Assembly: GCF_035621495.1 (NCBI RefSeq)
Contig: NZ_CP141821.1
Span: 524,760 to 588,759 of the forward strand
DNA length: 64,000 nucleotides
Direction of reading: 5' to 3'
Source: Thermococcus sp. SY098
Lineage (GTDB): Archaea > Methanobacteriota_B > Thermococci > Thermococcales > Thermococcaceae
Part shown: piece by piece, positions 16,653-32,412 of the stretch
How positions within the stretch are numbered: position 1 is the first letter of the stretch
How the letters are laid out: the number at the start of each line of letters is the position of its first letter
The notes under the pieces: generated by a model
The model's input: only the letters and a program-made list of their open reading frames with translations
Database searches by the model: none
What the model was told of the DNA's origin: nothing
Program-made: the position numbers and the translations under genes

Positions 16653-17888
16653 CTATTCCTGAAGTCTGAGCGTCAAAAGAAGGGCAAGACTGAGGGGAAC
16701 CAAAGTCGAAAGGAACATCAGTTTAAAGTTAATTCCAGCCAAATACCCTCCAAGCATTGGTCCAATTGCCCATCCAAGGCTCATCATAGCATTTAGAAGT
16801 CCCATTGCCTGAGCCTTTTCACTTCTCTTGACCTTTAATGCCACATATGTCGAGGCAGAGCTGATGGTCATTGACCACTTAATTCCAGAGAACACACAAA
16901 CCGCAACCATAAGCCAAAGACTTGTAGCAAAAGTGTAGCTAACAAAAACGGCCATATAACCAGCAATTGACAAAAGGTAGAAAAGCTTTGCCCCATACCT
17001 GTCTATCAGCCTTCCTATGAAGACAGCACTTACGGCAGCAGCTAACGAATCAATTCCAAAGAGCACCCCAACCCATTTTTCTCCAAAAAGCTCACCAAAG
17101 TAAACCGATAAAACTGAATACACTTCTCCCGACGCTATCATCACCAAAAGCACGGAAATATAGAAAAATTTCAAGTTTCCACGCATAAACTTTCTAAAAG
17201 CTGCACCTTCAAAGACAACCTTATCGCTTTCCCTTCCCTCTTGGACTGCTATTATACCGAAGTCCCTCTTTTTAGGCCTCACCCTTTCTGTTATCATCAA
17301 AACAAACAGCGTTCCAAGGATAGCAAATAAGAACGCAACAAAAAATGCTCCTCTAATTCCAAAATATTCTACGATAAAGCTCCCAAGAAAGTTCCCAAGC
17401 ATGTATCCAGCGTTCTCAACTGAACTAAAGAACCCAAAGGCTGAGCCAACTTTAGTTGAGAGCTCCGAGATTAGAGCTGAATGAGCAGGCATCATGGCTG
17501 AAGTCAAAGCTCCCTGAAAAGCTCTCAAAATTAAAAGCAGGATTGGTGAAGAGACCAGAGCCATAAAAACATAAATCAAACCAGAGGAAAAGACTCCAAA
17601 TGCTATGAAAGGTTTTCTCTTTTGAGTTCTATCCGAGAGATATCCAAATGGGTACTGAAAGACTGTTGAGGTGATATTGAATACCACACTCAAGAGACCA
17701 ACGAAGAGCATTGTGCCCCCAATTATCCTCATATAGACGCTCAGGTAGGGAAAGGCTATGCCCCAAGAAACATTTGCAAGAAACATCCCGATAGCAAATA
17801 GGACAATATTTTTCCTTCTCTTCTGCTTTGTGTTAAATTTGCCCACTCTTTCTCTTAGCGCTTGCATCACTGCCTTCTCCCTCTTCAT
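16653..17888 (-). CDS. MFS transporter, multidrug-exporter type
   Basis: 411 residues, about 12 membrane segments. Loop 2-3 has GYLSDRTQKRKPF and the second half has GRLIDRYGAKL, both MFS signatures. The motif GAFLGSFIVEYFGIRGAF in TM5 resembles antiporter-type MFS proteins, so export is somewhat more likely than uptake, but no substrate can be named. The start at ATG 17888 would be leaderless if the TATA palindrome at 17912-17919 is used; an internal ATG at 17867 with GGGAG upstream is the alternative. It is divergent from the C69 dipeptidase gene, with 61 bases between them. Confidence 0.84.
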   Translation of the reverse strand: MKREKAVMQALRERVGKFNTKQKRRKNIVLFAIGMFLANVSWGIAFPYLSVYMRIIGGTMLFVGLLSVVFNITSTVFQYPFGYLSDRTQKRKPFIAFGVFSSGLIYVFMALVSSPILLLILRAFQGALTSAMMPAHSALISELSTKVGSAFGFFSSVENAGYMLGNFLGSFIVEYFGIRGAFFVAFLFAILGTLFVLMITERVRPKKRDFGIIAVQEGRESDKVVFEGAAFRKFMRGNLKFFYISVLLVMIASGEVYSVLSVYFGELFGEKWVGVLFGIDSLAAAVSAVFIGRLIDRYGAKLFYLLSIAGYMAVFVSYTFATSLWLMVAVCVFSGIKWSMTISSASTYVALKVKRSEKAQAMGLLNAMMSLGWAIGPMLGGYLAGINFKLMFLSTLVPLSLALLLTLRLQE

Positions 17889-17908
17889 CGCTCTCAACTT
17901 TTCAAAAA

Positions 17909-17923
17909 CGTTTTATAAACCTT
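17909..17923. promoter_or_regulatory. Shared symmetric TATA element of a divergent promoter
   Basis: TTTATAAA at 17912-17919 is a perfect palindrome and can serve as TATA box on both strands. Purine-rich BRE-like bases flank it on each side (AAAAACG before it on the plus strand, TAAAGG on the minus strand). Its centre lies about 27 bases from the minus-strand ATG (17888) and about 34 from the plus-strand ATG (17950). Promoter use is inferred from spacing. Confidence 0.5.
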
Positions 17924-17949
17924 TATCTAAACATTCAGAGGGGAATCTT

Positions 17950-19233
17950 ATGTGCGACATATTAGTTGCCGCTCCAGATGCCACTAAAGAGGGAATAATG
18001 ATTTTTGCCAAAAACAGCGATAGAGACCCAAATGAAGCTCAAATTCTGGAGTTTCTTCCAAGGCAGAAACATGAAGAAGAAAAGGTTAAGCTCACCTATG
18101 TTGAATTTCCGCAAGTTAAGGAAACCTACGCCGTAATCCTCTCGCGCCCCTGGTGGATGTGGGGAGCAGAGATGGGAGCCAATGAATTCGGTCTTGTAAT
18201 CGGAAACACAGCTGTATTTACAAAGCTGAAAGTTCCTGAGAGGGGAATTTTGGGCATGGATATTATTCGCTTAGCTTTGGAGAGAACAAAATCAAGCAGA
18301 GAAGCTTTGGATTTTATAACTTCACTAATTGAAGAGTACGGCCAGGGAGGAAACGGAAGCTACGAGCATAAACTTTTGTATCACAACTCCTTCATAATCG
18401 CCGATAAAAACGAAGCGTGGGTTCTTGAAACCGCAGATAAGCACTGGGTTGCCAAGCAGATTAAAGATGTTTACTCCATCTCAAATGCCCTCACCATAGG
18501 GAATGAGTGGGATTTGGCATCGGAGAGCATTGAAAAACTTGCAAAGGAAAAGCCAAACTTCAACTTTGCTAAATATTTTTCCGACAGATTTTACACTCAC
18601 TTTGCTCATGGCAGGGAGAGGAGAACTTTCACATACAAAAAGCTCAGCGAGAAAAAAGGGGAAATAACTCTTGAATATATGATGCAGATTCTTCGCTCTC
18701 ACCAGGCTGAAGACTTTGAGCCTGCCAAAGGTTCTATGAGGGATATATGCATGCACTTTGGAGGCTTAACGAGGCCGTCTCAAACTGCCTCATCGCAGAT
18801 ATCGGAGCTTTACGACGATTTACCTGTGCACTGGTTTACAGGGACTTCACTTCCATGTTTAAGCATCTTTAAGCCAGTATACTTTGAAAGCGGAATCCCA
18901 GATTTGGGAGAGGAGCCGACGAACAAGTACAATCCAAACAGCTACTGGTGGAGATTTGAGCTCTTCCACAGAAAGTTTCAGATGAACTACAAAGCCTACA
19001 TAGAGGAGTTTGCTGGGGAGAGAAACAAGCTGCAGAAAGAGATAATCGAAAGGGAGAGGCAAGTTAGAGAAAATCCATCTCCAGAAGACCTCAAGGCGTT
19101 AACGGAGTGGGCTTTCAAGGAAGAAAGAAAGCTAGTGGAGAATTGGAGTTCAAAGATTAAGTTAGGGAAGACACCATTTTTGTACAGCAGAAATTGGAAG
19201 AAAGTGAATGTGAGGGCTGGGATTAATTTATAA
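17950..19233 (+). CDS. C69-family dipeptidase (Ntn hydrolase)
   Basis: 427 residues. The sequence starts MCDILVAAPDAT: Cys2 becomes the N-terminal nucleophile after Met removal, as in peptidase family C69 (dipeptidase A, secernin). Other family marks are FAKNSDRDPNEAQ (about 22-34), WMWGAEMGANEFGLVIGN (about 74-91), and EAWVLETADKHWVAK near 160. It should hydrolyse dipeptides or other small amides in the cytoplasm; there is no signal peptide. The start has GAGGGGAATCTT upstream. It is divergent from an MFS gene that shares its promoter region, so a link between transport and peptide metabolism is possible but unproven. Confidence 0.88.
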   Translation: MCDILVAAPDATKEGIMIFAKNSDRDPNEAQILEFLPRQKHEEEKVKLTYVEFPQVKETYAVILSRPWWMWGAEMGANEFGLVIGNTAVFTKLKVPERGILGMDIIRLALERTKSSREALDFITSLIEEYGQGGNGSYEHKLLYHNSFIIADKNEAWVLETADKHWVAKQIKDVYSISNALTIGNEWDLASESIEKLAKEKPNFNFAKYFSDRFYTHFAHGRERRTFTYKKLSEKKGEITLEYMMQILRSHQAEDFEPAKGSMRDICMHFGGLTRPSQTASSQISELYDDLPVHWFTGTSLPCLSIFKPVYFESGIPDLGEEPTNKYNPNSYWWRFELFHRKFQMNYKAYIEEFAGERNKLQKEIIERERQVRENPSPEDLKALTEWAFKEERKLVENWSSKIKLGKTPFLYSRNWKKVNVRAGINL

Positions 19234-19234
19234 T

Positions 19235-20317
19235 CTACAGTACTCTAAAGACCTTTGCTAATACCGGGTCAGCTATTTTATATCTGCCATTCTTCTTTTC
19301 AACATAGCCGTACTTTACAAGATTCTCGAGGAGATTTGAGAAGTTTGAATCATTGATGTAACCAAGCTTTAGAGTTACATAGTCTTTTATTTCGCTCCAC
19401 TTCTCATAACCCAAAGCAATACTTTTAAGAATCATCCTGTATCTTGGACTGTATGCGAAGAGTCTCGACATTTCACTACCTATTGCTTTGTTTGCCTCTT
19501 TAAAAACTTCATCAAGAGCTTTTTTGTGACTGAGTCTTTGTGAAACTCTAAGGTAGCCATATAAGGCAAGCCATCCAACAATTCCATCAAGCTTTTCAAC
19601 AGTGTCTTCAAGCTCAGATTTCTTAACTCTCTTTCCAGCCTCTTTAAATCCAGTTCTTAAAAATGAAAGACTCGTTTTTTCATCAAATCGCTTTAAAGCT
19701 ATGTCTCTATGATATCTCCCAAAGAGTGGAGCCTCTGGGTTCTCAAACTTGAGGAAATCAAAAAGCAAACCAACTTCACTTCCAATAAGTATAAAGGTCA
19801 AGTTCGGTAGATTATCAACAGCATAAGCTAAAATGCCGTCGTACCTTGTAGCTCCCCCAAAGCGCAGATACTGGGCTTCATCAAAAGCAATAATAACCCT
19901 TGTTCCGTTTTTCTCTCCATAATCGTCAAGTGCTTTCAGGACATCAGTTAGGTTGAAGTCCTTTGAAAAACTGAAACTGAGCCCAGAGATTGTTAAACCT
20001 TTAACATTCTTTAAGAACATCTTAGCCTCTTCAAATATCTTTCTCTTTCCACTCAACGCTGAGAGGAAATAGCGTGCAATTAGGTAGCGGTTCACAGAAG
20101 AGTGTTCAAAATAAACCTCTCTAACGTCAATTTTTACACTTGGAAAGTCAATTTCATTAAGAGCAGCATTTAGTAGGGAGCTTTTTCCGAGTCTTCTAAT
20201 TCCTAATAAGAGTATGAGCCTCTCACCATCCTCTATGGAAGATATAAGTTCACTAAACTCTTTATCTCTGTCAAAAAGCTCTTCTTTTTTGGTCTTTGGA
20301 TATGGTGAAAATAACAT
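19235..20317 (-). CDS. Archaeal AAA-type ATPase (PF01637-like), function unknown
   Basis: About 360 residues. An N-terminal LFDRDKEFSEL segment leads to Walker A LLGIRRLGKSSLL (about 40-52) and Walker B VIIAFDEAQYL (about 140-150); a sensor-like ILIGSEVGL follows. The C-terminal 90 residues look like a winged helix (GYINDSNFSNLLENLVKYGY, about 317-336) that could bind DNA. This is the archaeal ATPase family common in Thermococcales, often in many copies per genome and of unknown role. Start at ATG 20317, with GGGGTG 12 bases upstream inside one arm of an inverted repeat; a GTG at 20326 is the alternative. No partner gene is adjacent. Confidence 0.8.
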   Translation of the reverse strand: MLFSPYPKTKKEELFDRDKEFSELISSIEDGERLILLLGIRRLGKSSLLNAALNEIDFPSVKIDVREVYFEHSSVNRYLIARYFLSALSGKRKIFEEAKMFLKNVKGLTISGLSFSFSKDFNLTDVLKALDDYGEKNGTRVIIAFDEAQYLRFGGATRYDGILAYAVDNLPNLTFILIGSEVGLLFDFLKFENPEAPLFGRYHRDIALKRFDEKTSLSFLRTGFKEAGKRVKKSELEDTVEKLDGIVGWLALYGYLRVSQRLSHKKALDEVFKEANKAIGSEMSRLFAYSPRYRMILKSIALGYEKWSEIKDYVTLKLGYINDSNFSNLLENLVKYGYVEKKNGRYKIADPVLAKVFRVL

Positions 20318-20318
20318 A

Positions 20319-20355
20319 ACTTGCACCCCTACAAGTAACTATTGGGGGTGCAAGT
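20319..20355. promoter_or_regulatory. Perfect 11-bp inverted repeat at the ATPase promoter
   Basis: ACTTGCACCCC (20319-20329) and its exact reverse complement GGGGTGCAAGT (20345-20355) flank a 15-base spacer that contains another CAAGT. On the minus strand a TATA-like TTATATA (20355-20361) abuts the outer arm, so the repeat spans the expected transcription start. The inner arm also carries the GGGGTG ribosome binding site. This is best read as an operator, or less likely as an RNA hairpin masking the ribosome binding site. Confidence 0.6.
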
Positions 20356-20434
20356 ATATAACATTATCTCTGCCAAAGGGAAAGAATTTAGCTCAGTTAG
20401 TATCTTCGCATTGGGTAAAATAATCTTTAAAAAG

Positions 20435-21424
20435 CTAAATCTTTTCATAGCATTTCCCCTTAGCTCCAATCCTCTCTACTATTTTCTTGCAGGCTTCTCT
20501 TAGCTTTTGAGCATACTCCTCCGGAACTCCATCGTAGGTGAACTCCCAGGTGCCGAGCTCAATGCCTGCGGCATATTTCAGCTTATCCCTGTCTCTAAGC
20601 ATCGGATAGAACTCAATGTGAAGGTGATAAAAATCATAATGACCTTTAAACGGTGCCTGAAAGACGTTCATCACATAGGGCATCTGCCTCTCAAAGAGGG
20701 CGTTAAGCGTTGCCGTTGTCATTCTCAGAATGTCGGCCAAATCTTCAATCTCCCCATTATTCAATTGCGTCAGCCACTGCACATGACGCTTGGGATAAAT
20801 ATGCACCTCAAAAGGCCAGTTCGCAAAGAAAGGCATGAAGAGAACAAAACTTTCATTTTCATAAATGACCCTCTCCCCTTTCATCTCTTCCTCCAGGATG
20901 CGGCAGAAGAGGCACTCGCCAAAGCGCTTGTAATGTTTCCTCGAGTTCTCAATTTTCAAACGAGCCTTTAGAGGGATAAATGGTAGAGCATAGAGCTGTC
21001 CATGTGGATGTGTTAAGCTAACACCGATCTCCTCACCCTTATTTCGAAAGATTGCAAGGTATGTAACATGAGGATTATCCTTTAATTCCATAGTTACATT
21101 TTTCCATAATTCAACAACCTTAACCATCTGCTCCAGAGAAAGTTCGTCCAAATCCTTCAGATTATGCTCCGGAGTTTCCACTATAACGCTGCACTGCCCG
21201 ATAGCTCTGGCTTTTTTGTAGAAACCACCATTTTGAGGCTTTTCCGCTTTGAAATCAAGCATCGGAAACTTATTCGGCAAAAGAAGAACCTCCCAGCCAA
21301 AACCAGTTTCCTCACCTCCCGGACAGAAAGGACAGAAATTCTTAGGACGCCAGGGTCTCTTTTTTCTCACGGCAGAAACCATTATCCATTGGCCTGTTAG
21401 GGGGTTATAGCGGAGCTCCCTCAT
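20435..21424 (-). CDS. galT: Galactose-1-phosphate uridylyltransferase
   Basis: 329 residues. It exchanges UMP between UDP-glucose and galactose-1-phosphate (Leloir pathway). The HIT-type active site is SLTHPHGQLYALP (HPHGQ, the central His forms the uridylyl intermediate). The first half has the zinc-binding FCPFCPGG near residues 31-38, the second half ECLFCRIL and HIYPKRHVQWL, then FYHLHIEFYP. Starts at ATG 21424 after GGTGAGAGA. Galactokinase is encoded 8 kb away on the same strand, so in this genome the gal genes are separated by the C13-like and glycosidase genes. It probably processes galactose released by the alpha-galactosidase. Confidence 0.95.
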   Translation of the reverse strand: MRELRYNPLTGQWIMVSAVRKKRPWRPKNFCPFCPGGEETGFGWEVLLLPNKFPMLDFKAEKPQNGGFYKKARAIGQCSVIVETPEHNLKDLDELSLEQMVKVVELWKNVTMELKDNPHVTYLAIFRNKGEEIGVSLTHPHGQLYALPFIPLKARLKIENSRKHYKRFGECLFCRILEEEMKGERVIYENESFVLFMPFFANWPFEVHIYPKRHVQWLTQLNNGEIEDLADILRMTTATLNALFERQMPYVMNVFQAPFKGHYDFYHLHIEFYPMLRDRDKLKYAAGIELGTWEFTYDGVPEEYAQKLREACKKIVERIGAKGKCYEKI

Positions 21425-21486
21425 TCTCTCACCAGAGAAAAATGTCAGTTAAGCTTAATTTTTCTTTCGGTGCAAAATAAAAAAAG

Positions 21487-23676
21487 TCAGCCGAAGAGGT
21501 CTCCTATGACCTCCACCACCCTGTACACTTTTATGACCACCTTCACTGCAAAGATTCTTAGGGTTCTCCCAAACCCGACGCCGCTGTATCTTATCTCGCC
21601 CATTTTTAGGGCGTTTGCTCCCGTGCTCACGGGGTCTTCAGAGTTTATGATCCTCCTTGCAACGTCTTCGCTTGTCCATGCCCTCATCGTCGGCTCTGAA
21701 GTTCTGCCTTTTGAAAATTCCGTTATATAACCCCCTTCCGTCACGATGCCTATGCTGAGGACGCTGCCGTTTTCAAGGGATATCTCAAGGTCTATCCTCT
21801 CATTTCCGGTCATTCTTTTAATGAACCCGGGCAGATTATCAGCATTTTCATTGTACTTAGGTACATACTCCCTGAGAAGGTCAAAGAGAGTTTGCTCCTC
21901 AAGAATTTCGGCGGGTTCGGCTTCAAGCTCATTTATGCCGCCCGTACTTATCATGAGCCCCATTATGTTGTACTTAACGAACATTTCCGCATCCCCTGCC
22001 CATCCAACCTCAATGAGGTTTTCCTCCCCGAGAATCCCCTCATCCACGGGATACACAAGCTCGAAGGCATCAAGGTCAGGCTCATCGTCATAGGCAATAA
22101 TGGGCTCGACCATTGTCAGCTCCAGCATTTCTCCGTTTATATAGAGCACTATGTTCCCAAACATCTTTTCCCCGTACTCCACGATCTCAGGTGTCGCCTC
22201 AACGAGTATGCTCACGTAGGGCTGATTTTTTGGATCGAGCTTTATAACCTTTAAAAACTCCTCATCGAGATCCCATGAAATCTGTCCCGGTCTTTTGGCT
22301 GTTCTTTTTGGAGGAACCGGCTGCCTTACGGGGTCCTTTATCGCTTTATCAAGGGCTGTTTCTGTCCTTTCTCTATTCCCGTGATCCGACACCCAGAATA
22401 TGAGCTGCTCATTTTTGTTCATTTTCTTGCTGACATTTACAATAGCCTCATAGAGGGCTTTTTTGGTTCCGGGCCCGTCCACATAACTCGGCACATTCGT
22501 ACCGTTGGGCAGCGTTTTTCCATTTCCAGCCAGAGCTATTATGTCTCCATCGGTAAAGCCCTGCTTTTTAAGTGCCTTATATATCCTATCAAGGTTGTTC
22601 CAGTGCCTCTTGCTGTCAGCATCTCCAGCAAAAAGGATGGCATGCTTGCTTGCCACATCAGAACCGTCAACCTTCTTTCCAATCTTTATATTGCCCCCCT
22701 TTCCAATCGAGGTGTACTGGGGGGTTTCCTTAAAGTCCAACCCGTAAGGGCCGCGTGGATCCTGCTGCTCTGCTCTTCTGGCAATCTCTCTCACCGTTGG
22801 GGCATCCTTACCCGTCCTCGCCAGCTCCTCCCCAACTTCCTTCGGGTAGTAACCTTCAGGTTTTTTGAACCCTCTTTTTGCCATCTCTGGCCAGCTTGAA
22901 GGGGTGTATCCATCGGCGAGACCCCAAGATGTTTCGTTATGCCTGGAAGCGCTCAAAAATGCCGCATCCCCGGTCCCTTTCAGCTTTTCTTTAAGGTCAT
23001 CAATCATTCCTCCGCCAAAGCACTGGTTGAAGATGAAGACCATGTTCGCGTAGCCCGTCCTGTTGGCTATCCACATCCTCATCATGTTTGCAAGCTGCCA
23101 GTCGTAGACATAGCCACCGGAGCTCGTCACGATGCTGCTCGCATAGTCCTCCGGCTGGTCGTAGAAGTAGGAGCATTTTTCAGAATACAGAACCGCGGGA
23201 GTTATCTTGACCTCTATGAGGGCCTTCCCCTTATCCAGCTTTATCTCATATACTCCGGACTTTGTGACCGTTATGGAGCCCGAGCCGAGCTTCGTGTTTG
23301 AAAAGATGGTGTTGTACTCCTCCATGCTTACCTCAACATTTATCGGCTTTACCGGGGAGCACTCCTTGTGGCTGTAAAGCAGCCGCTTTTTTATATATCC
23401 ATTTCGCCCCTTCAGCGTGTCCCAGTCGTAGTAGAACATGTTTATCTTTCCGTCTTTAGTATTGTGTTCGCTGTGCGTAACCTTATATGTGCCGATTATG
23501 TCCGCGTATCCGTTCGCCCCGTCATCCATATCCTTGCTCAGGGACATGCCTATAAAGTACACATTTATCTGAACCGCGGGCTGACCAGGCGGGTCAAAAT
23601 GGGCTCCTATTGGAGATGTAGCCATTGAAAATATGACCAGAATGGCAAACAGCAAGCGTTTTTTCAATATTACCAC
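21487..23676 (-). CDS. Secreted caspase-like (C13-type, clan CD) protein with reversed motif order
   Basis: 729 residues. A signal peptide is clear (KK at 5-6, hydrophobic 8-18, cleavage near ATSPIGA). Residues 205-325 look like the Cys half of a legumain/caspase fold: FIFNQCFGGG (Cys219), FLSASRHNETSWG, then APTVREIARRAE and KETPQ. Residues 340-440 look like the His half: HAILFAGDAD, TDGDIIALAG, a GPGTKKAL helix and LIFWVSDHGN (His432). In known family members the His half comes first. The C-terminal 250 residues look like beta domains ending in an amphipathic tail (VKVVIKVYRVVEVIG). The gene is visibly GC-richer than its flanks (one 60-base line, 23101-23160, is 62% G+C by hand count), suggesting transfer. 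Start GTG 23676 or a TTG at 23667. Peptidase activity is inference. Confidence 0.7.
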   Translation of the reverse strand: MVILKKRLLFAILVIFSMATSPIGAHFDPPGQPAVQINVYFIGMSLSKDMDDGANGYADIIGTYKVTHSEHNTKDGKINMFYYDWDTLKGRNGYIKKRLLYSHKECSPVKPINVEVSMEEYNTIFSNTKLGSGSITVTKSGVYEIKLDKGKALIEVKITPAVLYSEKCSYFYDQPEDYASSIVTSSGGYVYDWQLANMMRMWIANRTGYANMVFIFNQCFGGGMIDDLKEKLKGTGDAAFLSASRHNETSWGLADGYTPSSWPEMAKRGFKKPEGYYPKEVGEELARTGKDAPTVREIARRAEQQDPRGPYGLDFKETPQYTSIGKGGNIKIGKKVDGSDVASKHAILFAGDADSKRHWNNLDRIYKALKKQGFTDGDIIALAGNGKTLPNGTNVPSYVDGPGTKKALYEAIVNVSKKMNKNEQLIFWVSDHGNRERTETALDKAIKDPVRQPVPPKRTAKRPGQISWDLDEEFLKVIKLDPKNQPYVSILVEATPEIVEYGEKMFGNIVLYINGEMLELTMVEPIIAYDDEPDLDAFELVYPVDEGILGEENLIEVGWAGDAEMFVKYNIMGLMISTGGINELEAEPAEILEEQTLFDLLREYVPKYNENADNLPGFIKRMTGNERIDLEISLENGSVLSIGIVTEGGYITEFSKGRTSEPTMRAWTSEDVARRIINSEDPVSTGANALKMGEIRYSGVGFGRTLRIFAVKVVIKVYRVVEVIGDLFG

Positions 23677-23702
23677 ACACCCAAACAGTTTTCATTAGAC
23701 AA

Positions 23703-23741
23703 CTAAAGTTCCAAGTTCTTTCACCAAAATAGGAACTTTAG
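23703..23741. promoter_or_regulatory. 10-bp inverted repeat upstream of the C13-like gene
   Basis: CTAAAGTTCC (23703-23712) and GGAACTTTAG (23732-23741) are exact reverse complements with a 19-base spacer. On the minus strand the TATA-like ATATATTAA (23743-23751) lies just outside the distal arm, so the repeat spans the likely transcription start of the caspase-like gene, 27-65 bases before its start codon. A repressor operator is the simplest reading. Confidence 0.5.
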
Positions 23742-23749
23742 CTTAATAT

Positions 23750-23765
23750 ATGTCAAGATTGACAT
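23750..23765. promoter_or_regulatory. 16-bp palindrome in the divergent C13-like/GH1 promoter
   Basis: ATGTCAA-GA-TTGACAT is a perfect 7-bp inverted repeat with a two-base centre. It lies just upstream of a TATA-like TTTATTAA (23771-23778) for the plus-strand GH1 gene, and overlaps the distal side of the minus-strand TATA. It could be the site of an activator or of a repressor common to both genes. Confidence 0.45.
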
Positions 23766-23813
23766 CAAAGTTTATTAACATGCCGCCACATATTTGGGTA
23801 ATGGGGAGTTGCA

Positions 23814-25064
23814 ATGTTAAAATTTCCTGACAACTTCATATTTGGCACAGCCACATCTTCTTACCAGATAGAAGGAGACAACATATGGAGCGACTGGTGG
23901 TACTGGGCTGAGAAGGGAAAGCTTCCTAAAGCCGGGAAAGCCTGCAACCATTGGGAGTTGTATAAAAAGGACATAGAACTGATGGCATCACTCAATTATT
24001 CCGCCTACAGGTTCTCAATGGAGTGGGCAAGGATTTTCCCAGAAGAAGGAAAGCTCAATGAGTCTGCTCTTGAGAGATATCAAGATATTATAGACCTCCT
24101 CAACAAAAAAGGAATAACTCCAATGCTCACGGTTCACCACTTCACCCTTCCAACGTGGTTTGCCCTAAAGGGAGGTTTTGAGAAAGAAGAAAACCTCAAG
24201 TACTGGGAAGAATACGTTAGCGTCATAGCTGAGCTTAAAGGTGTTAAACTTGTAGCTACGTTTAATGAGCCGATGGTTTACGTTGTCGCTGGTTATCTTA
24301 TGGGAATGTGGCCCCCTTTCAAAAAGAACCCCTTAAGGGCAGGAAAAGCTGCTGTTAACATGATAAATGCCCATGCAATAGCTTACGAAATCCTCCACGG
24401 AAAGTTCAAGGTTGGGATTGTTAAGAATTATCAGCATTTCATTCCAGCTACGAACTCAAAGAAAGACAAGGAAGCGAAGGATAGGGTTGATTATCTCTTC
24501 AACTGGGCTTTTATTGATGGTATTTTCCACGGAAGCTACGAGAGCTTCATGAAAAAATACGAAGTAAGTGAAAGCAATTTGGATTTCATAGGGATAAATT
24601 ACTACAACATCCAGAAGGTCAAGAAAAGATGGAATCCACTGAATCCATTCATAGTTGAAGATGCCGGCGTGAGCAGAAAGACCGATATGGGATGGAGTGT
24701 CTATCCAAAGGGAATTTATGCGGGAATAAAAGCCTTTTCAAGATACGAAAAACCAATGTACATAACGGAAAACGGCATAGCAACGCTTGACGATGAGTGG
24801 AGGATAGAGTTCATAATCCAGCATCTGCAGTATGTCCACAAAGCTATTAGAGAGGGTCTTGACATCAACGGCTACTTTTACTGGTCATTTATGGACAACT
24901 ATGAGTGGGCTGAGGGATTCAGACCAAGGTTTGGACTCGTTGAGATTGACTATGAGACTTTTGAGAGAAAGCCAAGAAAAAGTGCATACATTTATGGTGA
25001 AGTTGCCAAGAGGAAGGAAATAGGTGATGAGCTGTTGGAGAAGTATGGTCTCAGAGAGCTTTAA
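23814..25064 (+). CDS. Family 1 beta-glycosidase (short, BglB/BGPh type)
   Basis: 416 residues. GH1 retaining glycosidase: acid/base Glu152 in TFNEP, nucleophile Glu319 in ITENG, sugar-binding SSYQIEG near residue 15 and YFYWSFMDNYEW near the end. It is shorter than the CelB-type enzymes and matches in length the roughly 420-residue Pyrococcus beta-glycosidases, one of which (P. horikoshii) is membrane-associated and prefers alkyl glucosides. Beta-glucoside or beta-galactoside hydrolysis in the cytoplasm is likely. Starts at ATG 23814 after GGGGAGTTGCA. It converges on the GH4 gene with a four-base overlap. Confidence 0.93.
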   Translation: MLKFPDNFIFGTATSSYQIEGDNIWSDWWYWAEKGKLPKAGKACNHWELYKKDIELMASLNYSAYRFSMEWARIFPEEGKLNESALERYQDIIDLLNKKGITPMLTVHHFTLPTWFALKGGFEKEENLKYWEEYVSVIAELKGVKLVATFNEPMVYVVAGYLMGMWPPFKKNPLRAGKAAVNMINAHAIAYEILHGKFKVGIVKNYQHFIPATNSKKDKEAKDRVDYLFNWAFIDGIFHGSYESFMKKYEVSESNLDFIGINYYNIQKVKKRWNPLNPFIVEDAGVSRKTDMGWSVYPKGIYAGIKAFSRYEKPMYITENGIATLDDEWRIEFIIQHLQYVHKAIREGLDINGYFYWSFMDNYEWAEGFRPRFGLVEIDYETFERKPRKSAYIYGEVAKRKEIGDELLEKYGLREL

Positions 25065-26368
25065 CTTTTTACCATTTTTCTGATCTCTTCTGCATCTTCT
25101 TTGCTGAACTTGGGAAGTATGTCTAAATTGAGCTCAATTAGCTCAGCTATAGCCCTTAAACCACTCTCCGCATCATTTACAACGGGGTCAAGGAGAACCG
25201 CTTGTACAACTTTTTCTATATTGCCTTCCGCTGCAGCCTCAGCTGAGAGCTTCTGAATCTCCGCTTGAGTTCTCAGCATCGGTATTACCTCCTTCGTAAG
25301 CTTAACTTTCAAAGGCTTGATTCCTTTGGGAGAAACTTCAGCCGGCACTTCTACTACAGTTCCATAGGGCAAATCAATGTAGCCTTTATTAGGGACATTT
25401 ATAGCCTCCTGAAGCTTTTTGTTGCCTTCAAGCCCTTCAACAATATTCATTGCAATATCCGGGAACTTAATGAACTTGTTAAATGCAAACTTGGGTACGA
25501 AACCTTTAAGGAACAGCCGCAAAAGCTTCCTAACTTCCTCTCCCTCTTTTTTCGTCCGTTCGATCCACTTCAAGCCTTTCTTCTCTTCGGGAATTAAGTC
25601 CCATGCAAAGCTGAGGTATTCTCCAATGTGATTGTCACTTGGAGAGGGGAACAAGCCAAAAGCTCTGTATAAGAGCTGGGACAAAGGTTCAAATTTTGGA
25701 TTCTTCTCTAACGCAGAATCAAGCTTTTTATAACTTTCTTCTCCATCAATGTAAAGCTCCATGATCCATGTGAAGTGATTCAGACCAGCTGCAATGAAAG
25801 TTATTTGATTTTCTTTAACCCCTAACAAGGGAGCTAATGTTTCTTTCCTCTCAAGATAACCCGTGCACAGTCCATAGACATTTCTCAGCTTGGTGTAGTT
25901 TAAGACAGCATACGTAACTCTTGGCTCTGGATTTGAGTAGATGAAAACACGAGCATCACTGTTCATGTCCTCAATCTTTTTTGCAATATTCAAGACTAAA
26001 GGAACAACCCGTAAGGTGTGGCTTAAGCCGCCGATGCCGCCGTTCTCCCCTAAGACCTGCTTTATACCGTATTTATGGGGGATCTCAAAATCCAGCCTCC
26101 AGCTCTTGTAGCGCTCTTTTTCAACCGATATAACTGCATAATCGATACCAAAATCCTCAAGCTCTCGGATGTCCTGGAAAGCCCGAATTTTCAGCCCCTT
26201 CTTAAAAACTTTGCCAATTTTTCTCCCTACAGCCTCAATAAATTCCAGCCGCTCTTTGTCAATATCAACGAGGTAAATCTCTGCCTTATTCAAAATTTCG
26301 CTGTTCGCTATTGTATAGAGGGCTAAAGGAGTAAAGATGCTCCCAGCACCTATAAAAGCTATTCTCAT
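25061..26368 (-). CDS. Family 4 (NAD+/Mn-dependent) glycosidase
   Basis: 435 residues. GH4 enzymes cleave glycosides by transient oxidation at C3 using NAD+ and a divalent metal, and accept alpha or beta linkages. The Rossmann motif IAFIGAGSIFTPLAL opens the protein; YSNPEP (NP motif) is near 145-150, GLCTGY supplies the metal-binding Cys (about 168) and GLNHFTW the His (about 198). Some family members need 6-phospho sugars, others (alpha-galactosidase, alpha-glucuronidase) do not; with an MFS rather than a PTS transporter next door, a non-phosphorylated substrate is more likely. The ATG overlaps the stop of the deacetylase gene; GAGGTGG precedes it. Confidence 0.88.
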   Translation of the reverse strand: MRIAFIGAGSIFTPLALYTIANSEILNKAEIYLVDIDKERLEFIEAVGRKIGKVFKKGLKIRAFQDIRELEDFGIDYAVISVEKERYKSWRLDFEIPHKYGIKQVLGENGGIGGLSHTLRVVPLVLNIAKKIEDMNSDARVFIYSNPEPRVTYAVLNYTKLRNVYGLCTGYLERKETLAPLLGVKENQITFIAAGLNHFTWIMELYIDGEESYKKLDSALEKNPKFEPLSQLLYRAFGLFPSPSDNHIGEYLSFAWDLIPEEKKGLKWIERTKKEGEEVRKLLRLFLKGFVPKFAFNKFIKFPDIAMNIVEGLEGNKKLQEAINVPNKGYIDLPYGTVVEVPAEVSPKGIKPLKVKLTKEVIPMLRTQAEIQKLSAEAAAEGNIEKVVQAVLLDPVVNDAESGLRAIAELIELNLDILPKFSKEDAEEIRKMVKS

Positions 26369-27192
26369 CAAACCACCTCTGCAAAGGGGGTGACATGCAA
26401 CAGCAGCTTTGGAAGAACTTTAATACCTTCTCCGTACATAGCTCCAATTTTCTTCCCATAGAACATCCCAACAATTCTAATAAAGAGCTCCCATTGTTGC
26501 CAGTTCTTTTCAAACTGACTTCTATGCTCTTTTAGAGCTCTGAGTTTTACATCAAAAACATCTGTCACATCCTCGATGTAGCTGGGTCTCGCAGTGTAGT
26601 ATAAGGCAACCAGTGGGACTTCGTAAGGTGTCAAGCCCTTTTCAAGGTCATCTTTGTTTATATAAGGAAATGGAGCAAAAAAGACAGCTTCCAAAGCCAG
26701 AAAGCCAGCGTTTCTATGATCCGGATGGGCCTCATATGGAAGCCAAGGATCAGGGGCAAAGACGATATCGGGCTTCTCTTTGCGGATCACGCTTATTATT
26801 CTGTTTCTTACTTCAGGAGAGTAAGGAAGCTCTGTATCTTTATAATCGAGCCATATCAGCTTTTTAACTCCAATGACCTTTGCTGCTTTTTCCTGCTCCT
26901 TCTTTCTAATCCCAGCGAGCTCCTGAGGAGAAATCATAGGATCCCTGGTTCCCACAGCCCCATCTGTCAACGTTAAATACACAATTTCTTTTCCTTCCAA
27001 GAAAAGCTTAGCCAAAATTCCCCCAACTGCAAGCTCACAGTCATCTGGATGTGGCTGGATGCACAGAACTTTCTCAACATTTTCAAAGGGATTATCCAAA
27101 TCAATCCCAAGTATGTTCTGAAGTAAAAACTTAACCGCTTTTTTCTGATCTAAGCTCCCAAGCATTTGATTCAACATTTCAAATGACATCAT
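26368..27192 (-). CDS. PIG-L/LmbE-type N-acetyl sugar deacetylase (Dac-like)
   Basis: 274 residues, close in length and sequence style to the archaeal diacetylchitobiose deacetylases (Dac) of Pyrococcus and Thermococcus. Zinc/catalytic residues lie in IQPHPDDCELAVGG (His48, Asp51) and in EAHPDHRNAG (His156/His159). The family removes acetyl groups from N-acetylglucosamine-type sugars. The gene sits between a GH4 glycosidase (1-base overlap) and an MFS transporter (14-base overlap), so it acts in the same pathway. No GH35 glucosaminidase or chitinase gene is near, so chitobiose may not be the substrate. Two consecutive ATGs follow GGAGGGGTAATT. Confidence 0.86.
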   Translation of the reverse strand: MMSFEMLNQMLGSLDQKKAVKFLLQNILGIDLDNPFENVEKVLCIQPHPDDCELAVGGILAKLFLEGKEIVYLTLTDGAVGTRDPMISPQELAGIRKKEQEKAAKVIGVKKLIWLDYKDTELPYSPEVRNRIISVIRKEKPDIVFAPDPWLPYEAHPDHRNAGFLALEAVFFAPFPYINKDDLEKGLTPYEVPLVALYYTARPSYIEDVTDVFDVKLRALKEHRSQFEKNWQQWELFIRIVGMFYGKKIGAMYGEGIKVLPKLLLHVTPFAEVV

Positions 27193-28522
27193 AATTACCC
27201 CTCCTCAAAATTTCTTCGGCTCTTTTCTTCAAAATCTCTTGGATCCTACTTCTATCTTCCGGGTATTGCTTTCTAATCCACAGCCAGACAAGAGCACACG
27301 GAATCCAGAAGAGCGAGCCGATTATGAGAGCATATTCATATGCCAAAGCATTTGAGTAGCCGGCACTTCTGAGCGTTTCTATCAGGAATCCCCCGAAAAG
27401 AGGGCCAAGAGCTTTTCCAACGTTATCTATTATGTTGAAGACTCCGAAGACGGTGCCTCTGTCCTCGGGAAGATTAACTTGAGAAATTATTGCCGTAACG
27501 TTCGGCCCAGCAAAGCTCACCAGCTGGAGAAAGAGAAATGAATAAAGTGCAAGAGCAATCCAGCCTTTAATACTGAGCTGACTTGGAAGGGGATATATAA
27601 TAATTCCTATCGCCGCAAGCATGCCTAAGAATATTGCCAAGCCCGTTACAATCGCTCTGCCCCCTCTCATCTTTCCTTCAAAGTAATCCCCTACAAAACC
27701 CCCGATAAGAGTTCCTATAACTGTCGCAATCCCTAAAATTAGCAGAACAAACGTCGCCGTGTCTTTTGCCATTCCTCTTGTGACGATAAGGAATGAAACC
27801 AGCCAGTACATTAAAACACCCCACGGAACAGTCCCACTTAATCCCTGGAGGAATATCAGGAGATTCGTCTTTGTTTGGAACGATTTTTTAACAGCATCCC
27901 AGCTGAGTCTGTAGGTGTATTCGTAGCCCCTCTCGAGAACTTCTTTTAGGACTTTTTCCCCTCCTCCCCTCTTAGGTTCTTCTGCTATCAGGTAAAACAG
28001 GGGTGCGAGAATAAAATTTGGAACAGATGCTATTATAAACGGCGGCCTCCAGCTCGCTATTAGTCCAGCAATTACCATTCCAAAGAGCGTTCCAAATCCA
28101 AAAGCCGTCTGAATATATGCATACCCCCGTCCTCTGTGCTCTTCCTCAAACATATCCGCTATCAGAGAATATCCTATCGGAATTATTGAACCAACTCCGA
28201 TTCCAGTAAAAAGACGCATGAGCAAAAGCTGCCAATAGCTGTGAACAAATGCAGTTAAGAAACATGGAATTTCCCCGATTAGGACTCCAATTACAAGAAG
28301 CTTTTTCCTGCGTCCAATGTCTGAAAGGAACCCCCAGATAAGGGTTATTAATGCACTTGTTGCAACAAAGATCGTCGAAACTAATCCCATTTGGGTTTCG
28401 CTTATGCCGAACTCCTGCATAATCTGCTGATAGTTTGGGGGCAGAAGGTTTTGATCTGCCATCAAAAAAGCAGCCATCAAAATAAGGAGCACAATAGATA
28501 CCCTACGTCTAATGTTTTCCAT
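27179..28522 (-). CDS. MFS transporter in the glycoside operon
   Basis: 447 residues, 12 predicted membrane segments. Loop 2-3 GFLSDIGRRKKLL, the TM4 region IGVGSIIPIGYSLIADMF and EEHRGRGYAY fit sugar and organic-solute transporters of the MFS; the second half has GGFVGDYFEG. A large cytoplasmic loop (about 180-220) separates the halves. Given its place between the alpha-galactosidase and deacetylase genes, with overlaps on both sides, it probably imports the oligosaccharide handled by them. Start at ATG 28522, with GGAGGGAGGGTT immediately upstream. Uptake direction is inference. Confidence 0.85.
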   Translation of the reverse strand: MENIRRRVSIVLLILMAAFLMADQNLLPPNYQQIMQEFGISETQMGLVSTIFVATSALITLIWGFLSDIGRRKKLLVIGVLIGEIPCFLTAFVHSYWQLLLMRLFTGIGVGSIIPIGYSLIADMFEEEHRGRGYAYIQTAFGFGTLFGMVIAGLIASWRPPFIIASVPNFILAPLFYLIAEEPKRGGGEKVLKEVLERGYEYTYRLSWDAVKKSFQTKTNLLIFLQGLSGTVPWGVLMYWLVSFLIVTRGMAKDTATFVLLILGIATVIGTLIGGFVGDYFEGKMRGGRAIVTGLAIFLGMLAAIGIIIYPLPSQLSIKGWIALALYSFLFLQLVSFAGPNVTAIISQVNLPEDRGTVFGVFNIIDNVGKALGPLFGGFLIETLRSAGYSNALAYEYALIIGSLFWIPCALVWLWIRKQYPEDRSRIQEILKKRAEEILRRGNYDVI

Positions 28523-29606
28523 AACCCTCCCTCCAGGCTTGATAAATAGCCTTAAACGCATCTAATCTCCTCTCAGCCAGGGGTTCCCAACCGCGAGCAT
28601 CACTGTTTTCAGCTAAAAACGCATGTTCCCACTTCAACTCCCATGAAAGCATGTTCAATCTTTGATTTCCCCAATCTTTTGTCCAAATATCCAAACCTTT
28701 GTCCGGTGCCCAGCTTGAAGTTCTCAGATAAAGGCTCCTTCCGCTGTGTTTCAGCCTGCTTGGGAGAACAATCTCATTGTTAAGCTCATTTATTAACTCT
28801 CTGAGCTTCTGGATGCTCAAAATATAACCTGCCAAATTCCTGTATCCGAAAAACTCCAGATCAGTACCGTATAATATTATTTCATCCAGACCTTTAATCC
28901 ACTTCACGGCTTTCTTAACGTTCATCAGCGGGAACCCGCCTATTCCGAGCATAACGGCGGTATTAACTGCTACCCACACTGGGATACCCGTAATTTCTTT
29001 TACAGCTTTGAGAATAACCTTTCCACCAAATACAAGCTTTATTGCACTTTTTAGTTCTCTCAGACCAAGAAGGTAATTCCAATAGACAAATTTCTCTCCT
29101 CTTTGAGCTTTAATTAAATGAGGATAAAGAGGCTTTATGGGCTTAATTGCTGAATTTAGATGATTTGAGAAAAGCAACGCTTCCCCATCAACAAAGACTT
29201 CATCATAGCCACAGTCTCTTAAAATGGCAGGTATTATAGGATCGTAAGCTAATTCGGGAAGCCAGAAGGTCTTCGGTTTCACTTCAAAGGTTCTCTCTTT
29301 AACTGCTATGTCTTTCATTATCTGTGCCTCTACCCTATCCAAAGGAAGGAGAGGCAGAATAGCATGAGTGTAAGCTGTACCGGTAATCTCAATTAGATCG
29401 CTTTCAATACCTTCTTTTATGAGTGTTATTAGGTCTTTTGGCAAATACTGGAGAGAAAAACCCGTAATATTCAAAGCAAAAGGAATCTCGCTTTTTATTA
29501 GCTCGAAAATTGTTGGGATGTATGACTTTTTAACAACTTTTGGAATCTCACTTTTTGGAATTTCAGCATACTGAAGGTTTGCATGAAATACCAAGGCATT
29601 TGCCAT
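28509..29606 (-). CDS. galA: Family 57 alpha-galactosidase
   Basis: 365 residues, nearly the length of the P. furiosus GH57 alpha-galactosidase GalA, which likewise sits beside galactokinase. HANLQYAEIPKSE at the N-terminus corresponds to the GH57 first motif, KTFWLPELAYDP carries the nucleophile (Glu118), and ILYGTDLEFFGYR holds the acid/base Asp. It releases terminal alpha-linked galactose from oligosaccharides in the cytoplasm. Start at ATG 29606 after GGTGAGTGAA; five bases separate it from the galK stop. The galA-galK pair is conserved in Thermococcales, while the following MFS, deacetylase and GH4 genes look like an added module. Confidence 0.88.
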   Translation of the reverse strand: MANALVFHANLQYAEIPKSEIPKVVKKSYIPTIFELIKSEIPFALNITGFSLQYLPKDLITLIKEGIESDLIEITGTAYTHAILPLLPLDRVEAQIMKDIAVKERTFEVKPKTFWLPELAYDPIIPAILRDCGYDEVFVDGEALLFSNHLNSAIKPIKPLYPHLIKAQRGEKFVYWNYLLGLRELKSAIKLVFGGKVILKAVKEITGIPVWVAVNTAVMLGIGGFPLMNVKKAVKWIKGLDEIILYGTDLEFFGYRNLAGYILSIQKLRELINELNNEIVLPSRLKHSGRSLYLRTSSWAPDKGLDIWTKDWGNQRLNMLSWELKWEHAFLAENSDARGWEPLAERRLDAFKAIYQAWREGYGKH

Positions 29607-29611
29607 TTCAC

Positions 29612-30718
<1,107 letters not shown>

Positions 30719-30727
30719 TCAGAAACC

Positions 30728-30737
30728 TTTAAATATT
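30728..30737 (+). promoter_or_regulatory. TATA element of the tRNA-Leu gene
   Basis: TTTAAATATT lies 23-32 bases before the first base of the mature tRNA, the usual archaeal TATA distance to a start just ahead of the tRNA 5' end. Confidence 0.7.
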
Positions 30738-30759
30738 GCAGGTAGCTGATAAAATTCGG

Positions 30760-30847
30760 GCGGGGGTTGCCGAGCCTGGTCAAAGGCGCGGGATTTAGGG
30801 TCCCGTCCCGCAGGGGTTCCCGGGTTCAAATCCCGGCCCCCGCACCA
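30760..30847 (+). tRNA. tRNA-Leu (anticodon UAG)
   Basis: 88 bases including an encoded 3' CCA. Acceptor GCGGGGG (30760-30766) pairs with CCCCCGC (30837-30843), discriminator A. The anticodon stem CGGGA/TCCCG encloses the loop TTTAGGG, giving anticodon TAG. A long variable arm (class II) follows, then the T arm CCGGG-TTCAAAT-CCCGG. Reads leucine CUA codons. No intron is visible. Confidence 0.97.
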
Positions 30848-30959
30848 GAAACTTTTCTGACAATTTCATTCAAAAAATCAAATGGTCGTGTAACGCTTTA
30901 GGAGATTATACCAGAATCATGAGAGCAATTAAAAAATAAACCCAAAAAAGAATCAAAAA

Positions 30960-32129
30960 TCAACCAATCTGGAATGCTGCACTTCTCAGTTCTCCACGCT
31001 CAAATCTGTGTGGGTCGTACCAGTCCCAATCAAGTGGAACTTTGCTCTTTCCTTTCACTATCAGCTCTGCGATTGCCTCACCAACTCCTGGTGCCATCAT
31101 AAAGCCATGTCCGCTGAAACCTGCAGCTATATAAAGCTCATCTACATATTGAATTCTTCCTATTGCAGGATTGCTATCGGGAGTTTTGGCATAAAACCCT
31201 GCCCACTGCCTAACAACGTGAACATACTTCAAAGCAGGAATAATTTTTGTTGCCCACTTAAGTACCTCCCTCATGAAGTCATATGTAGGTTGAACATCAT
31301 CTAAATGAGTGAGCTTCTCAAGCCCAGTTCCGCAGATAACACCGCCATCTTCACCATCTTGGATGACATAGGAATCATTCCATGCAGGGGGACACGTCAA
31401 TGGTTCAATTTGTCCCTCTGCTATTGGCTCAGTTTTGACAAGTTGATGTTTGTACGGCTTTATTGGGATAAAATCCCTTTTCAGTCCAGCCATTTCATTT
31501 ATTATTGGTGCCCAAGCATTTGCAGCGTTAATTACTATTCCAGTCTTTATTATGCCTTTTTCCGTTTTAACCCCTTTTATTTCATCCTTTTCCACCAATA
31601 TATCAACCGCCGGTGTATATTCGCAAATCTCAACACCAAACTCTTTTGCTTTCTTTGCAAACCCGTAAACAACGTGGAATGGACTTGCCTTCCCATCTTC
31701 GGGGTTCCATGCACCCGCTAAGAAAGGCTCTGTATTAAGGGGTGGGACAATTTCTTTTGCTTCATCCATGCCAATGAGCCTTGTAGGGACTCCAAGCCTG
31801 TTCTGGAGTTTTATGTTTTTCTTAAATACTTCAACTTCCTCCTCACTTGTTGCTAAGAATAGGTATCCACTCTGTTTGAAATTTATATCATGCTCAAGCT
31901 CATCACTAAGCCTCTTCCATCTCTCAATGTTGTACTTTTGAAGCTTTATATTTGCTTCATCGGTAAATTGTGCCCTGATTCCAGAGGCACATCTGAAGGT
32001 TGAACCTGAACCTATGTATTTCTTCTCAAGGACAACAACGTCTTCAACACCAAGCTTTCCTAAATGGTAGGCTATTGAGAGTCCAATGACGCCTCCACCA
32101 ATAATGACAACTTCAGCTCTACTCTTCAT
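30960..32129 (-). CDS. FAD-dependent amine/imino acid dehydrogenase, beta-type subunit (copy A)
   Basis: 389 residues. A DAO-type flavoprotein: VVIIGGGVIGLSIAYHLG at the N-terminus, STFRCASGIRAQFTDEAN near 45, WAGFYAKTPDSNPAIG, and FSGHGFMMAPG near the end, all like the catalytic beta subunit of dye-linked L-proline dehydrogenase and sarcosine oxidase-type complexes of Thermococcales. It would oxidise proline or a related imino acid and pass electrons to the partner subunits. I chose ATG 32129 (MKSRAEVV); an ATG at 32135 is an alternative. It overlaps the upstream 2Fe-2S gene by 11 bases and is the last of four overlapping genes. A close paralogue is copy B at 34523. Confidence 0.87.
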   Translation of the reverse strand: MKSRAEVVIIGGGVIGLSIAYHLGKLGVEDVVVLEKKYIGSGSTFRCASGIRAQFTDEANIKLQKYNIERWKRLSDELEHDINFKQSGYLFLATSEEEVEVFKKNIKLQNRLGVPTRLIGMDEAKEIVPPLNTEPFLAGAWNPEDGKASPFHVVYGFAKKAKEFGVEICEYTPAVDILVEKDEIKGVKTEKGIIKTGIVINAANAWAPIINEMAGLKRDFIPIKPYKHQLVKTEPIAEGQIEPLTCPPAWNDSYVIQDGEDGGVICGTGLEKLTHLDDVQPTYDFMREVLKWATKIIPALKYVHVVRQWAGFYAKTPDSNPAIGRIQYVDELYIAAGFSGHGFMMAPGVGEAIAELIVKGKSKVPLDWDWYDPHRFERGELRSAAFQIG

Positions 32130-32412
32130 TTCCATCACTCTCCATCTCACCCACCAATACTCCGGCTGGAACGGGTCTCACAGGGATTCTTGTTGCAGGA
32201 AGCGTAATTTCATCTGGTCTTTTACCGGTTTTTCTTGCAAGGATCGAGATAACCATCGGAAGACATGTCCTTCCTTGACACGGCCCCATGCCTATCCTTA
32301 AAAGCCTCTTTATCATCTCGATGTCAGTGACTCCCTGGTCTATTAGAGCCTCGATTTCCTCCTGAGTTACTTCATTACAGCGGCAGATTATGATGTTTTT
32401 CTTATCGCTCAT
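32119..32412 (-). CDS. BFD-like [2Fe-2S] subunit (copy A)
   Basis: 97 residues. The (2Fe-2S)-binding BFD-like motif is ICRCNEVTQEE followed by GMGPCQGRTC: four Cys in a CxC...CxxxxC pattern. In related dehydrogenase complexes this small protein carries electrons between the two flavoprotein subunits. It overlaps the ferredoxin gene by four bases and the beta-type subunit gene by 11, and shows strong resemblance to copy B at 35652. Confidence 0.86.
   Translation of the reverse strand: MSDKKNIIICRCNEVTQEEIEALIDQGVTDIEMIKRLLRIGMGPCQGRTCLPMVISILARKTGKRPDEITLPATRIPVRPVPAGVLVGEMESDGNEE

Follow-up and report, generated by a model that had tools for sequence, protein, structure and literature searches.

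Introduction

In the caspase-haemoglobinase fold, the strands lie in the order 2-1-3-4 and the catalytic dyad sits at adjacent strand ends. GPI8 and the asparaginyl ligases are both C13 enzymes, and the GPI transamidase of eukaryotes attaches surface proteins. Engineered "reverse caspases", in which the segment order was deliberately swapped, retain activity. Type III metacaspases are cut between p20 and p10, and their p20 keeps His before Cys. These metacaspases represent a natural change of segment order in the caspase fold, with a p10-like part at the N-terminus (PMC5756287). A natural circular permutation that relocates the catalytic Cys has been described in the NlpC/P60 papain-like enzymes (PMC3142127), whose fold is unrelated to the clan CD fold considered here. 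The canonical order of elements in the caspase-haemoglobinase fold has been set out, and the order of His and Cys along the chain serves as one criterion for placement in clan CD (PMC4357240).

The closest described relatives of the protein reported here are legumain/asparaginyl endopeptidase and the peptide asparaginyl ligases (MEROPS C13, PF01650), with which both halves of its catalytic domain align by profile. Ordinary, His-first C13 proteins also occur in the same archaeal class and in the Archaeoglobi phylum. These archaeal proteins (L094, L109, L041, L042, L086-L093) share the signatures of the new family, including in L094 and L109 a tail of the form EAF.YA...D..PQY..GIG, but differ in their His-first order and in their accessory domains. 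Several genomes of the Archaeoglobi phylum encode periplasmic ligand-binding-like proteins of the ABC receptor type with a canonical C13 domain at the C-terminus (L086-L093, L107, L108), which are possible ligand-gated peptidases.

Here we describe a protein of Thermococcus sp. SY098 in which the Cys half of a C13-type domain precedes the His half. It is best explained, in our judgement with good probability, as an exported cysteine peptidase whose legumain-type catalytic domain is naturally circularly permuted.

Results and Discussion

Gene and domain layout

The 729-aa protein is encoded by the open reading frame 21487-23676 on the minus strand of the window (the whole stretch of 64,000 nucleotides that was analyzed). 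The gene starts with GTG and is single-copy in its 2.03-Mb single-contig genome. A sequence-only reading of this DNA had placed Cys219 in FIFNQCFGGG and His432 in FWVSDHGN, with Cys first, and these residue numbers are exact. Its proposal of a signal peptide is borne out by a KKR n-region, a hydrophobic core and an Ala25 cleavage region invariant in the family, and it is from this signal peptide that we take the protein to be exported. The beta-rich C-terminal part that it described corresponds to a beta-sandwich followed by an SCP2-like domain. Its claim of a GC-rich composition holds in direction, with 47-51% GC against 37-44% in the flanks, a difference that is modest rather than striking. 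The features of the locus are as follows.

23602..23676, minus strand: signal peptide, residues 1-25 (from sequence; invariant Ala25, model helix 2-19, predicted cleavage after Ala25)
23182..23598, minus strand: N-terminal C2-like beta-sandwich, residues 27-165 (Foldseek; eight model strands, pLDDT mostly 71-92)
22684..23163, minus strand: Cys half of the C13 domain read as permuted, residues 172-331 (Pfam C13 profile 128-190; legumain chain 183-245)
23020..23022, minus strand: codon of Cys219, predicted nucleophile, invariant in 18/18 homologues
22645..22809, minus strand: ancestral C-terminal tail and junction (..ETPQYTSIG...IGKK.DGS.V.SK), residues 290-344
22375..22644, minus strand: His half of the C13 domain read as permuted, residues 345-434 (Pfam C13 profile 2-42; legumain chain 48-101)
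22381..22383, minus strand: codon of His432, within invariant D431-H432-G433-N434
21937..22281, minus strand: beta-sandwich of no recognised family, residues 466-580 (model strands 466-470, 487-493, 509-577)
21490..21903, minus strand: C-terminal SCP2-like domain, residues 592-729 (Foldseek)
23703-23741, divergent intergenic region: inverted repeat CTAAAGTTCC..GGAACTTTAG (15-nt arms, 87% complementary, 9-nt loop)
23814..25064, plus strand: GH1-type beta-glycosidase gene, a divergent neighbor on the same promoter region and not part of the protease

The Cys half holds helix 3, strand 4 with Cys219, helix 4, strand 5, a SAS.H.E..WG segment and the ancestral C-terminal tail, and matches the canonical archaeal C13 protein L094 (E 2.5e-5). 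Strand 1 (HAILFAG), helix 1, strand 2, helix 2 and strand 3 with its DHG motif make up the His half, which matches the canonical protein L109 (E 2.9e-7).

Probable circular permutation of the catalytic domain

The only family matched by the protein was Pfam C13 (PF01650), at 27.9 bits against a gathering cut-off of 22.8, in two stretches with the Cys half first; five homologues scored 27.6-33.4 bits. Beyond this weak, split Pfam match, NCBIfam gave none. A profile of 15 homologues (A1) compared with all PDB sequences retrieved plant legumains and peptide asparaginyl ligases (best E 1.2e-4), in reversed order: query residues 334-385 fell on chain residues 48-101, and 183-249 on 183-245. The catalytic-domain profile (A2) again gave reversed-order legumain and ligase matches, with a best E of 3.6e-5. 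When that profile was rearranged (336-436, then 172-336), the best E improved to 9.6e-6, mammalian legumains were added, and plant metacaspase-4 aligned through both halves in a single colinear stretch (23-215 to 22-209). Two other matches were discarded: BURRH (4cj9/4cja) in the PDB profile searches, a repeat artefact with a few bits per repeat, and uL15, a chance match.

Further support for a rearrangement comes from the canonical archaeal proteins. Profiles of the separate halves match them with the His half first, at residues 6-102 and then 133-176 of L109, and at 233-269 and 350-424 of L094. We also scanned rotations of a simple family profile by Smith-Waterman alignment against four canonical archaeal C13 proteins. 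The summed score rose from 267 in the native order to 374 in the rotated, His-first order, with a plateau for cuts between residues 256 and 340 and a drop on either side; L094 alone reached 124 when rotated, against 28 +/- 4 for a shuffled-target null. A HMMER rotation scan with local profiles was set aside in favor of this one as uninformative, because it scored the halves as separate local domains.

The signature EAF.YA...D..PQY..GIG of L094 and L109, found in looser form in L041 and L042, lies about 85-105 residues past the Cys in L094, L109 and L041, and likewise in the permuted proteins. There, the equivalent tail (residues 295-325, ETPQYTSIG) ends 25 residues before the first strand, HAILFAG. 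This joining of tail to head through a short conserved linker points to circular permutation rather than to two degenerate domains. Given the reversed Pfam and legumain matches, the rotation scan, the tail-to-head junction and the predicted order of secondary-structure elements, the permutation put forward in the sequence-only reading is upheld, and we are highly confident that the catalytic domain is a circularly permuted C13 domain.

Predicted structure

AlphaFold predicted the full protein with a mean pLDDT of 64.7 (alignment of 15 rows) and residues 160-470 with a pLDDT of 68.4 and a pTM of 0.77 (alignment of 18 rows). Both models run alpha3-beta4(C219)-alpha4-beta5-helices-beta1-alpha1-beta2-alpha2-beta3(H432), so that at moderate pLDDT all elements of the caspase-haemoglobinase fold are predicted, in permuted order. 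Searched with Foldseek in PDB and BFVD, the catalytic model gave no confident match, and thus no solved or viral structure with the permuted order. Given Foldseek's sequential alignment and the moderate quality of the model, the null result is compatible with novelty and is not proof of it; it is equally expected for a permuted order under a sequential aligner and for a poor model.

Flanking domains

The top Foldseek matches of the full model were calcium- and phospholipid-binding C2 domains (cPLA2, PLC-delta, synaptotagmins; E 1e-6 to 1e-4, probability 1.00), with a best E of 6e-6 and a target TM of about 0.5 against single C2 domains. AF1534 (3cnu, 3bn8), of the SCP2-like type, followed with E 7e-5 and 1.3e-4 and probability 1.00. 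We assigned the C2 match to residues 27-165 and the SCP2 match to residues 592-729 by length and by the eight-stranded N-terminal unit, not by Foldseek-aligned residues. Sequence comparison found no C2 match up to E 10 (Pfam including PF00168, and the PDB sequence profile) and no SCP2 match (Pfam, PDB sequence profile), and for this reason both assignments are worded only as "like". The alignment shows invariant acidic loops, DDGxNGxxD and Y-D-x-D, in the C2-like domain, where the Archaeoglobi clade L058-L060 also has a loop DVDNPPVDPDDYLG resembling C2 calcium loop 3. On the evidence of the models, then, the catalytic domain appears to be flanked by folds that look like lipid-binding domains, C2-like on the N-terminal side and SCP2-like on the C-terminal side. 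Such a pair in a secreted archaeal protein is a second unexpected point. The intervening beta-sandwich (residues 466-580) is conserved in all homologues.

The SCP2-like domain also has a life of its own. Of 394 genomes of the Archaeoglobi phylum, 131 matched the full profile, with this domain accounting for nearly all of those matches, and many archaea carry the domain as short proteins of about 150-230 aa, three of which were examined and have apparent signal peptides. These short proteins (L061-L085 and others) form a widespread and apparently unnamed archaeal family, and those tested were recognised by no Pfam or NCBIfam model. The permuted protein shares the fold of its C-terminal domain with AF1534-type proteins; unlike it, the stand-alone relatives examined have no peptidase.

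Genomic context

The gene lies inside a sugar-utilisation cluster (window 17758-32150) of a type found in three Thermococcaceae genera. From reading the sequences, we take its genes to encode GH1, GH4, an LmbE-type deacetylase, an MFS transporter, galactokinase and galT. The divergent adjacency of GH1 and protease genes is kept in six Thermococcaceae genomes of three genera. In a fourth genus of this family the protease gene is near a solute-binding protein and an ABC transporter, and in Archaeoglobi it is near an oligopeptide-type ABC ATPase. Across the neighborhoods compared, no partner is conserved between clades, and the GH1 gene and sugar cluster accompany the protease in three Thermococcaceae genera only. 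As context, these neighborhoods fit the use or turnover of extracellular (glyco)proteins.

The strong inverted repeat that the sequence-only reading saw at the promoter does exist, with an AT-rich CATATATTAA box directly upstream of it. A comparison of nine upstream regions showed it in the window and in sister genome G108 only, which makes it a local regulatory curiosity and no feature of the family.

Distribution and conservation

The search for close relatives took in 84,980 species, and profile searches covered 115 + 394 archaeal genomes. Homologues occur in 16/115 genomes of the class, a count that takes in one genome with decayed fragments (G102) and one with a broken gene (G093), and five Archaeoglobi genomes also carry them. 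Viral contigs and plasmids were searched as well and held no close relatives of the protease. The window protein is 86% identical to an orthologue of another genus (G023) and 73% identical to that of G112 from its own genus; together with the patchy occurrence of the gene, this sequence pattern suggests horizontal transfer.

In all 18 aligned homologues, from Thermococcaceae and Archaeoglobi, Cys219, His432 and the Cys-first order are invariant. So are Q218-C219-F220, D431-H432-G433-N434 and the linker residues G333-K334...D337-G338-S339-V341-S343-H345. This invariance indicates that the Cys-first order is old and under selection, and not an accident of a single genome. The Archaeoglobi clade L058-L060 is more divergent, at 43-45% identity.

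Two genomes show the gene in disrepair. In G093 the break in the orthologue falls between its Cys half and its His half (L139:8600-9000), where the frame changes at a poly-A run; this gene may be a pseudogene, a sequencing slip or a case of frameshifting, which are alike possible. G102 is otherwise without the gene, and its decayed fragments of the protease gene at G102:C1:267917-268361 (L021, L023, L024, L038, L040) suggest loss.

Proposed mechanism

The ancestral chain would have run beta1-alpha1-beta2-alpha2-beta3(His)-alpha3-beta4(Cys)-alpha4-beta5-tail. In our proposal this chain was cut in the loop that separates the His from helix alpha3, and the short conserved linker IGKKxDGSxVxSK came to connect its former C-terminus with its former N-terminus. 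The outcome would be the present chain, alpha3-beta4(Cys219)-alpha4-beta5-tail-linker-beta1-alpha1-beta2-alpha2-beta3(His432). The two halves would repack as one sheet, with Cys219 and His432 as the usual dyad and Gly433 in the oxyanion hole, and we consider it likely that this predicted dyad is catalytically active.

With regard to specificity, Arg357-His358, a pair of the legumain S1-pocket type, is kept in 15/18 homologues and is absent in L058-L060, and the SAS.H.E..WG segment aligns with legumain TASNSTEGSW. These two features make a legumain-like Asn/Asp preference reasonable in the Thermococcus clade, where they may provide it, and weaker for L058-L060. For the predicted peptidase as such, Asn/Asp specificity is a tentative assignment, to which we give somewhat less than an even chance.

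Its two lipid-binding-like domains suggest that the protein acts at the membrane surface. The new termini could hold the enzyme at the outer membrane face through the C2-like, beta-sandwich and SCP2-like domains, probably in a calcium-dependent manner, and there it might cleave extracellular proteins or proteins of the S-layer space. We regard association with membrane or lipid as evenly balanced.

Alternative explanations

The domain could be permuted and yet inactive, a pseudo-peptidase retained for a structural or lipid-binding role at the surface or as an adhesin. The lipid-binding-like flanks and the patchy distribution (16/115 genomes in the class) would fit such a role. An inactive protein should have lost the dyad in one clade or another, but Cys219 and Asp431-His432-Gly433 persist in all 18 sequences despite identities of 43-45%, and we consider this reading unlikely. 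The sequence-only reading had spoken of an exported protease or adhesin; as a prediction the first is plausible, and for the second we found no specific support.

An active site completed between two chains, by domain swap or in an obligate dimer, with no pairing within one chain, is slightly less probable still. The broken G093 gene could in principle supply two complementing chains, but its break has the look of an insertion within a poly-A run, and in G102 the gene has decayed as well. The single-chain catalytic model reaches a pTM of 0.77, and tail and strand 1 are linked by a short, highly conserved segment of the kind that an intramolecular join should show.

In the profile searches the nearest solved structures were those of peptide asparaginyl ligases, which together with the two lipid-binding-like flanks raises the idea that the enzyme is no hydrolase but a lipid-associated transpeptidase or transamidase, linking proteins to an acceptor at the surface. 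C13 ligases and hydrolases are indistinguishable at such sequence distance, and no acceptor, sorting signal or genetic partner was found in neighborhoods made up of sugar-utilisation or ABC-transport genes; we hold this reading improbable. A composite of these ideas, in which an active permuted clan CD enzyme, tethered through calcium and lipid to the outer membrane surface of a hyperthermophile, acts as an Asn-specific peptidase or transpeptidase and possibly attaches or releases surface proteins in the manner of GPI transamidase, is likewise an unlikely one.

Two tandem caspase-like domains that arose by duplication and degeneration and each lost the complementary catalytic residue, as the sequence-only reading had offered by way of alternative, would account for two separate C13 matches in one protein, but this fails and is very improbable: the matches cover non-overlapping profile parts (128-190 and 2-42) and the flanks, where the missing halves should lie, consist of a C2-like domain and a beta-sandwich, so that neither half is a whole degenerate domain, and the ancestral tail is followed by ancestral strand 1 within 25 residues.

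Classification and significance

Among the explanations weighed, we thus retain a permuted C13 peptidase, and its place among known enzymes can be set out by comparison. Legumains and the permuted family have in common strand 1 (A.L.AG), the RH pair, mvF....C..G.m, [ST]AS...E.sW and the DHG motif. They differ in that the permuted family has its Cys half first and carries C2-like and SCP2-like flanks, and does not conserve the catalytic-triad Asn of legumain, which we take to be Asn42; profile comparison found no match to the legumain C-terminal prodomain in the permuted protein. Reverse caspases differ in being artificial, with small and large subunits swapped and the dyad order unchanged. Type III metacaspases have a p10-like segment N-terminal to an intact His-first p20, whereas here the cut lies inside the p20 equivalent, between His and Cys.

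As in C13 enzymes, the DHG follows strand 3 and the Cys motif follows strand 4. By homology, the protein is a C13 derivative, and it would probably act as other C13 enzymes do. His before Cys is the clan CD order, and with Cys219 first in 18/18 homologues the family departs from it; we would therefore file it as a permuted C13 subfamily and not as an ordinary member. A literature search that covered few subscription journals turned up no clan CD enzyme described as circularly permuted, and the main structural review nowhere mentions circular permutation (PMC4357240). We found no precedent in this enzyme superfamily for a break and rejoining between the active-site residues.

A natural family with reversed order indicates that a break between the two catalytic strands can be accommodated by the caspase fold. 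Where the usual order is taken for granted, searches and classifications will miss or mis-file such enzymes. The presumably thermostable scaffold, with new termini beside the active site, may be of use in structural work and in the engineering of asparaginyl ligases.
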